The translations under genes were made by a program, and so were the position numbers. DNA of 37,283 nucleotides from a bacterium. Lineage in GTDB: Bacteria; Chloroflexota; Chloroflexia; Chloroflexales; Kallotenuaceae. Under the pieces are notes generated by a model. The model ran no database searches, had not been told where the DNA came from, and saw nothing but the letters and a program-made list of their open reading frames with translations. This document shows, piece by piece, positions 822-9,786 of this stretch (positions within the stretch are counted from its first letter, which is position 1; every line of letters begins with the position of its first letter). The stretch covers positions 8,479 through 45,761 of the forward strand of contig JADDQF010000050.1 in assembly GCA_016781505.1 (NCBI GenBank), in the 5' to 3' direction.

Positions 822-3098
822 GTGCTGCCCTGTTCCGCACGTTTCCAGAAGCACACCGCTATGCCTTTACGCTCGCGTATGCGACAGCCCACCCGCCGCC
901 GATGGTCTCGGCAAGGTTTTGCGCTCCTAGCCCAGCTAGGAGCAGTCGCGGATCGCGAAACTGTTTGCGATGTCGCGTTAGCCGGCATATGTGATCTGTT
1001 GCGCACGTCGCACAGCTGGTTGCGTTGGCTGGATGTGCATGAACAGCCCGCGCTCAAGATCCATTCTGCACCGCACGCTGCCACTCCTTTTCCCCATGCG
1101 CTAAGCGCGCAGAGCGCAGCGCTTGTCCAGCAAACCAGGCGCTCGTTGCGTGTACCTGACTTAAGCAACCCACCACATTCGTTGGTGGAGGCACTCCCCC
1201 CTGCAACCATGGCCGGCGCACTCCTGGCCGTACCGATCATGCTTGGCGACGAGCTCTGCGGCATCCTTGCCGCCGTCGCCGATCAGCCACGCGTATGGCG
1301 GACCGCGGAGGTTGCGCTGCTGGAAGCGATCGGGGCACAGCTTGCCAATGCGGTGCAACGCCACCAGCTTCGCTCGCAGCTCAAGCAGCAGGCCGACGAG
1401 CTGGCGACCGTGTATGGAACGGCCATCACGATCACGTCCAACCTTGACCTATCGACCACACTTCATACCATCGTGGAGCAAGCCGCGCGGCTGACACACG
1501 CAGATGGGGGTGGGCTCTACCTCCATCATGAGCGCCAGGGGGAGCTCGAAGTGGTCGTAAGCTATCAGCTGGACCGCGATTATCGGGGACAGCGCATCAA
1601 GGTCGGGGAGGGACTGGCCGGTCGCGTCGCGCTTTCCAAGCAGATTGAACGGGTGGCCGACTACTCGTCGTGGGCGGGGCGGTCGCAGCGCTATGCTGCC
1701 GCACCATTTTACGCCGTGCTCGCCGTACCGCTGCTGCACGACGAGCGCGTCCTCGGGGTGCTTGATCTGCTGCATACCGAGCGCGGCGCGTACTTCACCG
1801 ACAACGACGTCAGGGTTGTGCAGCTCTTTGCGGCGCAGGTCGCCGTCGCGATCACCAATGCGAGCTTATACAATGCTGTGTCACGGCAAGCACAGCGCAT
1901 GACCGAGCTAGCACAAGCCTCCCAGCTGCTCGATGCGCATGGCGATATCGCTGCTACAGTGAAGCCGCTGGCAACCAAAGGTATGCAAATCCTACGCGCG
2001 CAGGCATGCATCGTGGCGTTGTGCGGTGTAGCAGCGGCCGAGGCGATCCATGTCGTTGGTGCCAGCGAGACCCAACGCGCAGCACTTGAGCAAAGCGACG
2101 CATTTCGCTGCAACCACGCCTCCCACTCCAGTCCGTATGAGGCCCTCACGGCGGAAACTGTCATGGTCACGGCTATGCCAGGGCAGGATTTGGTGCATGA
2201 TGCCGGTTTTGCCAGCTATTGGCAGCTGCCGCTGCTGCGTGACGATCAGCTGATTGGCCGCGTCACCTTTCTGTACGATGAGCCGCACACCTGGGATCGG
2301 GCCGAAGGTGAAATTGCGCGGGTCATCGCCAACCAGCTGGCGGCGTTGCTAACGAACGCACAGCTCTACTATGAGGCGCACGAAGCGAATCGGCTCAAGT
2401 CCGAGTTCGTCGCCACCGTCAGCCACGAGCTGCGCACCCCGATGGGCGCAATCATGGGCTATGCCGAATTGCTCACGAGCGGCTCATACGGCATGCTGCC
2501 GAGCGCAATGCACGACCCTTTAAGACGTCTCAGAACCAATGCCGACAGCTTGTTGCTGTTGATTAACCAAATGCTCGATCTGTCGCGCATTGAGGCGGGC
2601 CGGCTTGAGCTGCGCGTGGAACCCTTTCATCCGCAGGATCTGCTGCATGCCGTTGCCGCCGCGGCGCAGCCGCAGACCTTTGGCAAGGCCGTCAGATTCG
2701 ATTACGCCGTGAGCGAACACGTCCCCGCCATTATCATGGGTGACGTGGGCCGGCTGCGGCAAATTTTGATCAACCTTGTTGAAAACAGCCTCAAGTTCAC
2801 ATCGCGGGGTACGGTCACGCTGCGCTGCGCCTGCCTTCGTGACGGCGCACGACCCGAGCTGATCTTTGAAGTCACCGATACAGGCCCGGGGATTGCGCCC
2901 GAAACGGTGGCGGTTATTTGGCAGCCGTTTCGCCAAGGCAACAGCTCAGCGACGCGGCAGCATAGCGGGGTAGGGCTGGGCCTGACGATCGTCCATAAAC
3001 TTGTCGGGCTGATGGGCGGCTCGGCAACCGTTATGAGCGAGCTGGGAGTTGGCAGCACCTTTACTATCCGCCTGCCTCTGCTGCTGCCTACCATGTAA
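822..3098 (+). CDS. Multi-GAF sensor histidine kinase (cytosolic)
   Basis: About 758 residues from GTG 822; ATG 861 (MPLRSRMRQ) is an equally possible start and neither has a strong ribosome site. No membrane segment is visible. The order is three GAF-like regions (about residues 30-185, 195-345 and 355-520), then a HisKA dimerisation helix with the phosphoacceptor in SHELRTP (His about 535), then a HATPase_c domain with N box LINLVENSLKFT, G1 box DTGPGIAP and G2 box GVGLGLTIVHKL. The protein should autophosphorylate on His in response to a cytoplasmic ligand, redox or light cue read by the GAF domains; none of these could be assigned a cofactor. There is no receiver domain and no adjacent response regulator, so it is an orphan kinase. 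A TATAAT lies at 792-797 without a clear -35. ruvB follows after 119 bp with its own promoter-like site. Confidence 0.9.
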   Translation: MLPCSARFQKHTAMPLRSRMRQPTRRRWSRQGFALLAQLGAVADRETVCDVALAGICDLLRTSHSWLRWLDVHEQPALKIHSAPHAATPFPHALSAQSAALVQQTRRSLRVPDLSNPPHSLVEALPPATMAGALLAVPIMLGDELCGILAAVADQPRVWRTAEVALLEAIGAQLANAVQRHQLRSQLKQQADELATVYGTAITITSNLDLSTTLHTIVEQAARLTHADGGGLYLHHERQGELEVVVSYQLDRDYRGQRIKVGEGLAGRVALSKQIERVADYSSWAGRSQRYAAAPFYAVLAVPLLHDERVLGVLDLLHTERGAYFTDNDVRVVQLFAAQVAVAITNASLYNAVSRQAQRMTELAQASQLLDAHGDIAATVKPLATKGMQILRAQACIVALCGVAAAEAIHVVGASETQRAALEQSDAFRCNHASHSSPYEALTAETVMVTAMPGQDLVHDAGFASYWQLPLLRDDQLIGRVTFLYDEPHTWDRAEGEIARVIANQLAALLTNAQLYYEAHEANRLKSEFVATVSHELRTPMGAIMGYAELLTSGSYGMLPSAMHDPLRRLRTNADSLLLLINQMLDLSRIEAGRLELRVEPFHPQDLLHAVAAAAQPQTFGKAVRFDYAVSEHVPAIIMGDVGRLRQILINLVENSLKFTSRGTVTLRCACLRDGARPELIFEVTDTGPGIAPETVAVIWQPFRQGNSSATRQHSGVGLGLTIVHKLVGLMGGSATVMSELGVGSTFTIRLPLLLPTM

Positions 3099-3139
3099 GC
3101 TAACCACCTGAGCACGATCATCCGCTGTCAACCATGGCT

Positions 3140-4444: not shown

Positions 4445-4847
4445 TCATCCTGGTTGCTGGCCATATTCGTCGTCGGTGACGTGCTCGCCCCAGATTGCGG
4501 CGTTGCCCTGGTCGTCGACTTCGAGCATAGCCAAGTGGGTCATGAAGCGATTAGGGGCCGCGCCGTGCCAGTGCTCCTCGCCGGGCTCGAAGAACACGCG
4601 GTCACCGGGGCGGATCACCTCGATTGGTCCGCCGCGCCGTTGGCACAGGCCGATACCCTCGGTGACGTAGATCGTCTGACCGTTTGGATGAGTGTGCCAC
4701 GCCGTTCGCGCATGGCGCGAAGTGGACGCTGCTCGCACTCAGACGCGAGCCAGTCGACGGCGACGCGACCGTGTCGACCAAGACCGCGCCCGTAAACCAC
4801 GCGCTCGGTCCGGCATGGGTGTCGATCGAATTTCTGGTGATCTGCAT
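4445..4847 (-). pseudogene. Cupin-domain protein, disrupted by a frameshift
   Basis: Translation from ATG 4847 (AAGGAG six bases upstream) gives MQITRNSIDTHAGPSAWFTG and continues through SASSVHFAPCA, then runs into nonsense. The expected continuation, TAWHTHPNGQTIYVTEG with the two-His cupin motif 1 and later PGDRVFFEPGEEHWHGA (motif 2), is in another frame that ends at 4445. The break falls at about 4702-4716, inside an alternating GC run, and looks like the loss of two bases. Together the two parts would make an ordinary single-domain cupin of about 134 residues, of the kind often found beside aldo/keto reductases and AraC regulators. A base-calling error in the GC run is the alternative to a true pseudogene. 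It is the last gene of the minus-strand redox module. Confidence 0.75.
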
Positions 4848-5019
4848 AGCGTGCTCCTTGATGGTGGTGTGCGGCGCTCCAATCGTGAGCCGCGCCGTTT
4901 CGTAGTTCTAGATAGATTGTGTGCAAGCGTCAGGCACCACTCAGCCGATGGCCTCGCGACGCTCGCTGGTTCGCACCAGCGAGTGAGGCAACAACGAGCG
5001 GATACTCCTTCTCGCTCGC

Positions 5020-6030
<1,011 letters not shown>

Positions 6031-6098
6031 TCATCGACCCGGCGCGGCACTGGCCCATTGCTGACCTTTTCCATGCCGATCGGCATCTTCGGTACCAC

Positions 6099-6338
<240 letters not shown>

Positions 6339-6376: not shown

Positions 6377-6754
6377 TCAGCGCGGCACGAGTTTGATCGT
6401 CGCGGCGCGTGCCGCCGGGCTGTTGATACTGTCGATGATGCTTGCGGCATAGCGGCGGTATTTGGTCCGGTACACAGCGTCGATCTGATCGTTGATGCCC
6501 GGGTTGGGTTCCTCTACAAAAGCAACATCTTGCTCGACGCCGCCGGCCCAAATCCGACCTTCATAACGCGTTTGGACGCCACGGAACCAGGCGGCAGTGC
6601 GCCCGTTCACGGATCGGACGTAGAGATCATCGCCGTGGCGGACGACCCAGATAATCACTGGTTTTCGCGATGTGCCATCGGATCGTAGTGACGCGATCCG
6701 CAGTTCTTCCGCATTCCCAATGCTGCTCAGATCGTCGTTTGTCCACGTCGTCAT
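6377..6754 (-). CDS. DUF2255 family protein
   Basis: A 125-residue protein beginning MTTWTNDDLSSIGNAEELRI, with AAAGGAGG six bases before ATG 6754. The central sequence KPVIIWVVRHGDDLYVRSVNG, a WFRG segment, and the ending AARAATIKLVPR are characteristic of DUF2255, a small soluble family with a split-barrel look and no established reaction. It starts only 16 bp after the alcohol dehydrogenase stop, so the two are surely co-transcribed. Members are often found beside oxidoreductases and AraC regulators, as here. No catalytic residues can be named. Confidence 0.85.
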   Translation of the reverse strand: MTTWTNDDLSSIGNAEELRIASLRSDGTSRKPVIIWVVRHGDDLYVRSVNGRTAAWFRGVQTRYEGRIWAGGVEQDVAFVEEPNPGINDQIDAVYRTKYRRYAASIIDSINSPAARAATIKLVPR

Positions 6755-6770
6755 TGGCGTGCCTCCTTTT

Positions 6771-7787
6771 TTATGGGCACAGCAGCACCTTGATGGCCCG
6801 GCGCTCATCCATCGCGCGGTAGCCCTCCGCCACCCGATCGAGGGGCAGGGTCAGGTCAAAGACCTTGCCGGGGTTGATCGTTCGGTTCCATACCAGGTCA
6901 ATCAGTTCTGGCAGGTAGCGACGAACCGGGGCTGGACCACCGTGGAGGTGAACGTGAGCGAAAAACAATTCCTCGCCGTTCAGCTCGACTTCGTGTGGAA
7001 CGCCGACATAGGAAACGTACCCGCCCTTGCGCGTGGCGCGGATCGCCTGCATCATCGCTTCTTGCGTCCCAACGCACTCAAGCACCGAGTCCGCACCGAC
7101 CCCATCGGTCAGGTCCATGATCCGCACGATGCCCTCGTCGCCGCGCTCGGTCACGATATCGGTCGCGCCGAACTCGCGGGCGAGCTGCTGCCGCGGCTCG
7201 TGCCGGCTCATCGCGATGATCCGCTCTGTGCCCATCTGCTTGGCGGAGAGCACGCCGAGTAAGCCAACTGCTCCGTCACCGACGACCACGATGGTCGATC
7301 CAGGCTTTACGTTCGCCGCGTCGGCGGCGAACCAGCCCGTTCCCAAAACATCGGACGTCGTCAGCAGGCTTGGAATCAGATCGTCCGCGGGGATGCCTGG
7401 CGTAGTGACGAGCGTGCCGTCCGCGAGCGGCATACGTAACAGTGGTGCCTGCGCGCCGCCCATAAACTCCCGCTGCACGCAGGATGACTGGTAGCCGAAC
7501 TGGCAGGTAGGGCAGGTGTTATCGGAGGTGGCAAACGAGCCGACAACGAACTGACTAGGCGTGATGTGCTTGACCGCGCTACCGACCTCCTCAACGATGC
7601 CGCAATACTCGTGGCCCATTGCCTGTGGCTGGGTGATCGGTGCGATGCCCCGGTAGGGCCACAGGTCGGACCCACACACACACGTTGCCGCAATCCGGAT
7701 GATGGCATCTGTCGGTTCGATAATCGTCGGGTCGGGGCGCTCCTCGAAGCGCACATCCCGGGGGCCATAAAGCACTGTTCCTCGCAT
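6771..7787 (-). CDS. Zinc-dependent alcohol dehydrogenase (MDR family)
   Basis: A 338-residue medium-chain dehydrogenase. Catalytic zinc ligands are in ATCVCGSD (Cys38) and AMGHEYCG (His59/Glu60). The structural-zinc loop is NTCPTCQFGYQSSC, with three Cys (92, 95, 103) and Asp89 where the first Cys usually is. The Rossmann motif is VVVGDGAVGLLG. It would oxidise or reduce an alcohol/aldehyde with NAD(P). ATG 7787 (MRGTVLYGPRDVRF) is chosen over GTG 7799 because GGAG lies six bases before it. It is the first gene of the minus-strand module and is divergent from the AraC regulator, with about 240 bp between them, so AraC control is likely. Confidence 0.9.
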   Translation of the reverse strand: MRGTVLYGPRDVRFEERPDPTIIEPTDAIIRIAATCVCGSDLWPYRGIAPITQPQAMGHEYCGIVEEVGSAVKHITPSQFVVGSFATSDNTCPTCQFGYQSSCVQREFMGGAQAPLLRMPLADGTLVTTPGIPADDLIPSLLTTSDVLGTGWFAADAANVKPGSTIVVVGDGAVGLLGVLSAKQMGTERIIAMSRHEPRQQLAREFGATDIVTERGDEGIVRIMDLTDGVGADSVLECVGTQEAMMQAIRATRKGGYVSYVGVPHEVELNGEELFFAHVHLHGGPAPVRRYLPELIDLVWNRTINPGKVFDLTLPLDRVAEGYRAMDERRAIKVLLCP

Positions 7788-7946
7788 ACAGGTCTCCACT
7801 TCCTTTTCTCTTTGTCCTGGTGTCTAGGCAGGCCTCACATCCTCACAAAGCTAGATCTGCTCTTGTACAAAAGTCCAAGCAGCTTGTGCGATCAAAGATC
7901 ATCCGCTCCTGCACACGAGCTATTTTATAAGCTTTAGATCAGAGAG

Positions 7947-7955
7947 TGGTATAAT
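7947..7955 (+). promoter_or_regulatory. Extended -10 promoter for the AraC gene
   Basis: TGGTATAAT, identical to the element before ruvB, lies about 70 bp before the AraC start region. No good -35 hexamer is seen at the usual distance. The surrounding bases are AT-rich compared with the flanks. Confidence 0.5.
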
Positions 7956-8023
7956 GATTTTCCAGCATCGTTGTACTATCCTGCACAACTGAGCGATGGA
8001 TCGTGGAAGAATGAGGGAAGAAG

Positions 8024-8974
8024 TTGGTATGGATTCGACGTATCAGGAGCCGGCAGCGCGCGGTACACCGGTCACAAGCGAGCCGTGCGGAGCTTGTCGA
8101 TCGCGTAGCGCGGGTGTTGCCCGAGGATGGGAAGACTGAGCCGCTGCCGGGGCTGCGACTCCACCGTTCATCGCAACGTACGGAGCTAGGACATGGCTTG
8201 TCCTTTCCGGCCGTGTGCGTGATCGCGCAGGGCAGCAAGGAAGTGCTGTTGGGAAACACCTGCTACCGCTACGATCCCGCGCATTACCTGATCGCCACTG
8301 CCGCGCTGCCCATCGCGAGCCACATTGTTGAGGCGTCGCCGGAGCAACCGTATCTAAGCATCGTCCTCCAGCTCGACCCCAACCTCGTCGGCTCGGTGAT
8401 GGTTGAAGCTGGTCATCACGCCCCCCGGAGTCAGTCGGCCGTGACGGCCATCGACGTCAGCCCGCTGAACGCCGATCTGCTTGATGCCGTAGTGCGGCTC
8501 GTGCGGCTCCTTGAGGCTCCGGCCGAAGCGCGTTTCCTCGCGCCGTTGATCAAGCGGGAAATTGTGTACCGCCTCCTCGTGGGCGCACAGGGCGGCAGGC
8601 TCCGGCACATCGCGGCGTTGAGCGGCTACACCGACCGCATCACCGAGGCGATCGAACGGCTGCGAAAAGATTTCGACCAGCCGCTGAGCATCGAGACCAT
8701 CGCACGCGAACTCGGGATGAGCGTTTCAGGCTTTCACCACCATTTCAAGGCGGTCACTGCGATGAGCCCGTTACAGTTCCAAAAGCACCTCCGGCTGCAG
8801 GAGGCCCGGCGGCTCATGCTCGGCGAACACCTCGACGCCGGCAGCGCCGGATACCGTGTGGGGTACGGCGATGCCTCGCACTTTACCCGCGAGTACAAGC
8901 GGTTGTTCGGCGCACCGCCGATGCACGACGTGGAACGACTGCGGCAAGACACCAGGGGCAGTGCTGGGCTTTGA
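8024..8974 (+). CDS. AraC-family regulator, probable N-terminal frameshift
   Basis: The frame holds an AraC_N-type cupin sensor half (PLPGLRLHRSS through YLSIVLQLDPNLVG) and, in the last 100 residues, two helix-turn-helix units (LSIETIARELGMSVSGFHHHFK and a second ending in GYGDASHFTREYKRLFGAPP). It likely controls the divergent dehydrogenase module. The start is odd. This frame begins only with TTG 8024 and an Arg-rich, unnatural N-terminus. ATG 8029, with a purine-rich site before it, reads MDSTYQEPAARGTPVTSE and then leaves frame; deleting one C at 8083-8084 would join it to RAELVDRVARVLPEDGK. A one-base insertion or a sequence error is therefore suspected. As written, ATG 8029 gives only 36 codons. 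The family call is firm; whether the gene is functional is not. Confidence 0.85.
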   Translation: MVWIRRIRSRQRAVHRSQASRAELVDRVARVLPEDGKTEPLPGLRLHRSSQRTELGHGLSFPAVCVIAQGSKEVLLGNTCYRYDPAHYLIATAALPIASHIVEASPEQPYLSIVLQLDPNLVGSVMVEAGHHAPRSQSAVTAIDVSPLNADLLDAVVRLVRLLEAPAEARFLAPLIKREIVYRLLVGAQGGRLRHIAALSGYTDRITEAIERLRKDFDQPLSIETIARELGMSVSGFHHHFKAVTAMSPLQFQKHLRLQEARRLMLGEHLDAGSAGYRVGYGDASHFTREYKRLFGAPPMHDVERLRQDTRGSAGL

Positions 8975-9251: not shown

Positions 9252-9599
9252 TCAGGGTGTTGAGCACCCATTCGTGGTGGAGCCGCCCTGATGCGGCTGC
9301 GCACCGCCACCATTGCCCGGGTTGGTGCCACCCTGCCCGGGAGGTGCATTGTTGGGAACCGTGGTCGGGCCATATTTACCTGCCAACGTACAATCGATAT
9401 TGGTGTACGTCGAGCTGATCCGACGGCCGGTCAGCGTCACTCCACCGACCACAACGATCGCCACCAACACCAGAATCACCGCATACTCAGCAAACCCCTG
9501 GGCAACTTGTCGTCTGCTCGCCACCAGGGATGACACAAAGGGCCACACGCGGCCCGCCAACACCGCTACCGCCAACAACCATTGCTTGAAGCATTTCAT
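9252..9599 (-). CDS. Flp-type (type IVb) pilin-like protein
   Basis: A 115-residue protein from ATG 9599 (GAGG six bases upstream). After a basic, hydrophobic leader it carries AQGFAEYAVILVLVAIVVVGG, the class IVb prepilin signature with Glu at +5 and a hydrophobic helix that would form the filament core. The usual Gly before the prepilin peptidase cut is Ala here if cleavage precedes QGFAEY. The C-terminus is a Gly/Asn/Pro/Gln-rich tail with two Cys (positions in DCTLAG and NGCSTP) that could form a disulfide. No prepilin peptidase, tad ATPase or other pilus gene is nearby, so it is an orphan. Related solitary Flp proteins occur in several Chloroflexota. Confidence 0.75.
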   Translation of the reverse strand: MKCFKQWLLAVAVLAGRVWPFVSSLVASRRQVAQGFAEYAVILVLVAIVVVGGVTLTGRRISSTYTNIDCTLAGKYGPTTVPNNAPPGQGGTNPGNGGGAQPHQGGSTTNGCSTP

Positions 9600-9786
9600 A
9601 CAACACCTCACTCCAACAAAACGAACGTAGATCAAACTTAGCGAACGACGTAGGACGAAGCAATAGATATTTGGTCCCAAAAAAAGTAGCGGTGGTCCTG
9701 AATCAAGCCACTATTTTGCGCCCCCATATAGCCCCTGTGAGCACGCCGCACTTGTCGTGCAGAGTCCTGCGAAGCGGCAGCGGCTG

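Follow-up and report, generated by a model that had tools for sequence, protein, structure and literature searches.

The window (i.e. the whole 37,283 nt stretch of DNA analysed here) lies on contig C145 of the draft bacterial genome G000 (4.18 Mb in 159 contigs, 96% complete). It contains a gene for an AraC-type regulator on the forward strand, and on the opposite strand a module of dehydrogenase, reductase and associated genes that is divergent from it. The features discussed are as follows.

4445–4847, minus strand: cupin gene, frameshifted (net loss of 2 nt near 4707–4711)
5020–6009, minus strand: aldo-keto reductase AKR1, open frame of 329 aa, Pfam profile covered almost entirely
6096–6296, minus strand: remnant of a second aldo-keto reductase (AKR), with an in-frame TGA at 6198–6200 and the C-terminal ~220 residues gone
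6377–6808, minus strand: DUF2255 protein, open frame, complete Pfam profile covered
6771–7799, minus strand: zinc-type alcohol dehydrogenase (ADH), open frame with Pfam match, divergent from the regulator
7947–7985, plus strand: conserved block, promoter/operator-like, ahead of the regulator gene, comprising TGGTATAAT (7947–7955), 16 nt, and TGTACTATCCTGCA (7972–7985)
8013–8023, plus strand: purine-rich leader GAGGGAAGAAG, a possible ribosome-binding site for both TTG 8024 and ATG 8029
8024–8026, plus strand: candidate for the start now in use, a TTG that shares the frame of the regulator body and stands 22 codons ahead of E23
8029–8031, plus strand: probable ancestral start, an ATG that no longer shares the frame of the body and stands 61 nt ahead of the E23 codon
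8054–8071, plus strand: zone of frame change, net 2 nt shorter than in homologues, covering an alternating GC run at 8056–8062
8090–8974, plus strand: YqhC-like AraC_N/HTH_18 regulator body, intact, from E23 to the stop (the whole TTG frame is 8024–8974)

Both domains expected of the regulator are present, AraC_N (PF06719, E = 1.1e-53) and a C-terminal HTH_18 (E = 4.1e-20). The protein resembles the AraC-type regulator YqhC of E. coli (33% identity over 307 aa), for which gSELEX gives a single binding site in the yqhC/yqhD-dkgA spacer (PMC8249747). As YqhC is divergent from yqhD-dkgA, so the regulator here is divergent from oxidoreductase genes, including ADH and AKR1. The neighbours differ from those in E. 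coli (zinc ADH, DUF2255, two AKRs and a cupin), as does the start of the gene, the ATG of the window regulator being out of frame. By analogy, the divergent dehydrogenase/reductase genes would be under the control of this regulator, with reactive aldehydes as the signal. The gene types of the module recur beside a homologous regulator in many of the loci that were fetched, in varying subsets. Four proteins were tried against NCBIfam, and none matched a model above its cut-off. Further along the window a short ORF on the minus strand (9252–9680) has a hydrophobic N-terminus (QGFAEYAVILVLVAIVVVGGVTLTG) that we take to resemble that of a pilin.

The frame beginning at ATG 8029 reads MDSTYQEPAARGTPVTSE... 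and closes at 8139; the next frame, open from TTG 8024 to 8974, encodes the AraC body, and the two overlap over 8029–8139. In 23 of 46 homologues (selected by omission of duplicates, of sequences below 50% identity and of those whose match begins beyond residue 20) the ELV anchor is preceded, at a distance of exactly 21 codons, by an ATG. The distance from ATG 8029 to the anchor codon (8090) is 61 nt, compared with 63 nt as the commonest in the family, and the ATG is thus out of frame. The window regulator therefore lacks the in-frame ATG at −21 codons, an arrangement that is typical of the homologues, although not obligatory. The ATG frame begins as the homologues do, e.g. MDSTDHRQ in L005 (same genus), MDSTNPQQ in L034, MDSTIRQQ in L008 and MDAAHQEQAERG in L004.

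A profile was constructed from the N-termini of those 23 homologues that have ATG at −21, only these being retained for it and for the DNA alignments described below. Over positions −20 to −11 the ATG frame scores 12.3 bits (p = 8e-5 relative to 50,000 random stop-free stretches of G000), and the TTG frame −7.4 (p = 0.37). Over positions −10 to −1 the order is reversed; the TTG frame scores 17.0, which was matched by none of the 50,000 random stretches, and the ATG frame −9.6 (p = 0.32). Since selection for ATG at −21 had shaped the profile, the first ten residues were also compared with all 46. The ATG-frame peptide scores higher than the TTG-frame peptide in 39 of these, with one tie and six lower, giving p = 0.01 for the former and p = 0.52 for the latter against 2,000 random M-initial peptides from G000. 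On these comparisons the regulator frame is broken relative to the family. The earlier note had proposed that ATG 8029, behind its purine-rich leader, encodes a natural-looking start, and that the rest of the protein is in the next frame; both proposals are borne out.

Could TTG 8024, or an internal GTG or TTG, simply be the normal start, with a family-like ATG peptide arising by chance? The TTG frame is open into the body, and the N-termini of the family vary. Moreover the gapped tblastn match of L011 (MAWKRSEYEAQ...) extends to residue 1 of the TTG frame, and the matches of L040 and L042 to residue 2. This explanation is nevertheless very unlikely given the scores above for the two frames, to which may be added that L045 has the same leader and start DNA as the window (GAAGAAGT-n4-ATGGATTCGA). 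By the earlier note, homologues beginning exactly as the TTG 8024 frame does would speak against its reading; judged by eye there are none among the 46, L011 being the nearest. It is also conceivable that programmed +1 ribosomal frameshifting links the ATG start to the body, given that both halves are family-like and that the frames overlap over 8029–8139. This is extremely improbable: the shift is not conserved, since the 23 homologues that have ATG at −21 read start and body in a single frame. No stop and no known slippery site was seen in the sequence 8054–8071.

The lesion had been placed by the earlier note at 8083–8084, as one extra C. We reject this, because the TTG frame is homologous to the family from about residue 12–15 (8057–8066), well upstream of 8083. 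A scan of possible switch points gives a plateau of 29–31 at 8059–8071 and only 12.9 at 8083; as a yardstick, the 23 homologues score 0.8–39 on profiles from which they were left out. DNA alignments to the same 23 homologues give a net change of −2 in 18, a count that is partly built in by their selection for ATG at −21, and −1, −6, −5, +13 and 0 in the other five. Eight of the 23 contain a single clean 2-nt gap, always within 8054–8068, around GCGCGCG at 8056–8062. In earlier alignments with five homologues having MDS/MDA starts, a compensating 2-nt gap was found by the trimmed 3′ end in three, and longer alignments with L045, L008 and L009 contain paired, mutually cancelling 2-nt gaps near 8101 and 8110. 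As the distance from ATG to anchor is 2 nt short, a 2-nt loss is a better fit than the gain of one. The lesion is therefore likely to be best described as a two-base loss, as would occur by slippage in the alternating GC run. Gain of one base would lead to the same frame, the N-terminus then being shorter by one residue; this is a less likely explanation.

The body of the protein has no stop in 294 residues. Its conservation was examined in 28 sequences (that of the window and 27 that were fetched, chosen by hand), with a tilt toward the window in that the homologues were retrieved using it as query. From residue 23 onward none of 37 columns with a single deviant sequence has the window as the deviant. 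The window deviates in three of 137 columns with an identity of 80% or more, a count among the lowest for the 28. In an AlphaFold2 model the mean pLDDT is 88. Averaged over blocks of ten residues it is 57 for residues 1–10, then 84 for the second block and 97 for the third; the first ten residues are predicted, poorly, to lie in a helical extension. Seven sequences of solved structures match the regulator, all of them only over residues 191–307, the DNA-binding part.

TTG is a weaker start codon than ATG. The calculated duplex with the anti-Shine-Dalgarno sequence is nearly the same for the two starts (−6.3 kcal/mol for TTG and −6.1 kcal/mol for ATG), with homologues ranging from −2.2 to −11.5 kcal/mol; the predicted leader pairing of the regulator start is only moderate. 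In the top-scoring homologue, L032, position −21 is occupied by ATC and position −22 by an in-frame TTG, an indication that the regulator subfamily may make use of TTG starts.

These observations bear on whether the regulator is a true pseudogene in a decaying cluster, giving no useful translation. An AKR remnant and a broken cupin gene lie nearby, and the TTG start stands behind a leader of moderate strength. We think it unlikely that the gene is dead, as 294 body residues are free of stops, the window supplies no single-deviant column, and the likely targets AKR1, ADH and DUF2255 keep open frames and Pfam matches. With an intact body and an alternative in-frame start at TTG 8024, the regulator is probably not inactivated, although the conserved appearance of the body could merely reflect a very recent lesion.

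The remnant of the second AKR is 84% identical to L062 (288 aa) over 67 residues, interrupted by a stop at the position of an Arg in L062, and the alignment goes no further than 6096. Some 67 residues are kept, compared with 284–297 in homologues. On this evidence it is a real pseudogene. Complete open copies of the second AKR are present in L062, L008 and L006; that of L005 is cut off at the end of its locus. In the cupin gene, residues 1–53 and 47–133 of L054 match in two different frames, and DNA alignments to both L054 and L046 place a net loss of 2 nt near 4707–4711, in a GC context like that of the AraC lesion. All three of the lesions reported by the earlier note (in the cupin, the AKR and the N-terminus of the regulator) are thus present. 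In L005 (from G003, same genus) ADH residues 4–117 continue into the C-terminal part of DUF2255 at 2629–3108, so that a piece seems to have been lost there as well. In L062, a Chloroflexia MAG, the regulator match (5001–5597) begins only at residue ~118, and the AKR1 match (1630–1779) is only 51 residues long.

An assembly or sequencing error, with an in-frame ATG and a normal regulator in the cell, is a real possibility for the regulator lesion. The regulator body and the upstream element are both conserved, and the nearby cupin gene is likewise 2 nt short in a GCGC context, so the two net −2 lesions may possibly share a technical cause. In general, assembly errors explain many apparent bacterial pseudogenes, assembler, platform and coverage being named as factors (PMC11017572). 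Against error, the background of frameshifts in G000 is low. A strict search, which covers 5.4 kb of the contig of the window and is blind to lesions as near a gene end as that of the regulator, found two sites in 153 kb of homology-covered DNA, i.e. this cupin and L136. On inspection we judge the latter to be, apparently, an antisense ORF crossing two genes. A looser search, with fewer reference proteins, found three sites in 122 kb (L136, L137 and L145), none of them on the contig of the window, and missed the cupin. The strict search applied as a control to stretches of G003 found none in 50 kb. Furthermore, alternating GC runs of at least 6 nt are abundant (881 in 638 kb), and a systematic fault should recur more often. 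Finally the AKR remnant is hard to put down to error; a large deletion together with TGA in place of Arg is not typical of read errors.

Since frameshifts appear to be rare elsewhere in G000, decay is likelier than generally poor sequence, and poor sequence genome-wide is unlikely. The reading that we favour is real decay of the module with a tolerated lesion in the regulator. The earlier note had suggested either decay of a transferred cluster or locally poor sequence. Decay is supported by the three lesions, and poor sequence as a general property does not agree with the few frameshifts in G000, a purely local fault being possible. The element of transfer gains no support from the tree or from G+C content. 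In the tree of the same 28 sequences the AraC body forks with L032 (apparently the copy of G001, same genus) and L005, with SH-aLRT 94, just below 95, and no starred set of the tree contains this fork. By path length L033 (apparently the copy of G098, related only at the level of class) is equally near, at 0.44 vs 0.45. The G+C content of the module is 0.57–0.63, inside the range of the window, and the regulator family occurs across several phyla. Recent transfer of the regulator or module is thus not supported, though it is still conceivable.

The block upstream of the regulator follows the pattern TRRTAKRAT-n16-TGnAnnATYCTSYA with fixed spacing. This pattern, composed after inspection of the upstream regions, precedes the regulator gene in 21 of 48 such regions (the window and 20 of the other 47, near-duplicates included), compared with an expectation of 0.0 per 48 regions in first-order Markov resamples. 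The 20 other carriers, which include L003, L034 and L045, are from Chloroflexota or class-level relatives of the window, together with one KSB1 locus (L047). The two-block element is likely to combine the promoter and the operator of the regulator. No convincing match to it occurs in the E. coli spacer region, with at least four mismatches in each block, and a scan of 7750–8150 for consensus promoters and terminators gave no result.

We suggest the following course of events. The regulator would be a YqhC-like activator of the divergent reductase and dehydrogenase genes, a function assigned from YqhC, and its ancestral start would be ATG 8029. Two bases net would have been lost at ~8054–8068, most simply by slippage in the GC run 8056–8062; this would have displaced the ATG frame and at the same time put the body in frame with TTG 8024, which lies five bases upstream and shares the leader. 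Production of the protein would continue, with the first dozen residues altered; these should belong to the N-terminal helical extension rather than to the sensing or DNA-binding domain. We infer that the loss is present in the DNA of the cell rather than in the assembly alone, that it arose by slippage, and that translation begins at TTG. That a loss at this position put ATG 8029 out of frame while the regulator is still made from TTG 8024 has, in our view, about an even chance. The full reading, in which the loss is real and tolerated, the change of start codon keeps the regulator alive with a new N-terminal tail, and the target cluster is losing genes, we put tentatively at a probability of roughly 0.45.

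A lesion of this kind has parallels. A survey of frameshifted prokaryotic genes (fs-genes) in 1,106 genomes detected frame transitions in 206,991 genes (PMC3711429). Like those genes, the regulator has one frame transition and is otherwise conserved; it differs in that the lesion is no more than ~45 nt from the start, with an alternative in-frame start just upstream. In the hisD3052 allele of the Salmonella Ames strains a mutagen-induced frameshift removes 2 nt, CG, from a CGCGCGCG run (PMC8284014). The likeness is the loss of one CG unit from an alternating CG tract, and the difference is that the loss in the window, unlike the mutagen-induced one of a tester strain, is presumed to be natural and frame-disturbing. 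The exact string TGTACAATTCTGCA, the one string tried, was absent from the literature searched, and we make no claim of novelty from this.

In essence the observation of the earlier note is partly confirmed, its place and kind aside: the site and size of the suspected frameshift are corrected, and the true pseudogene (the AKR remnant) is set apart from the lesions that only reads can decide. As a by-product a conserved promoter/operator-like element has emerged before YqhC-like regulators, chiefly in Chloroflexota. The lesion itself is probably a real but ordinary small frameshift near one end of a conserved regulator whose cluster has partly decayed, and to judge from the gene as it stands the regulator may well remain functional.
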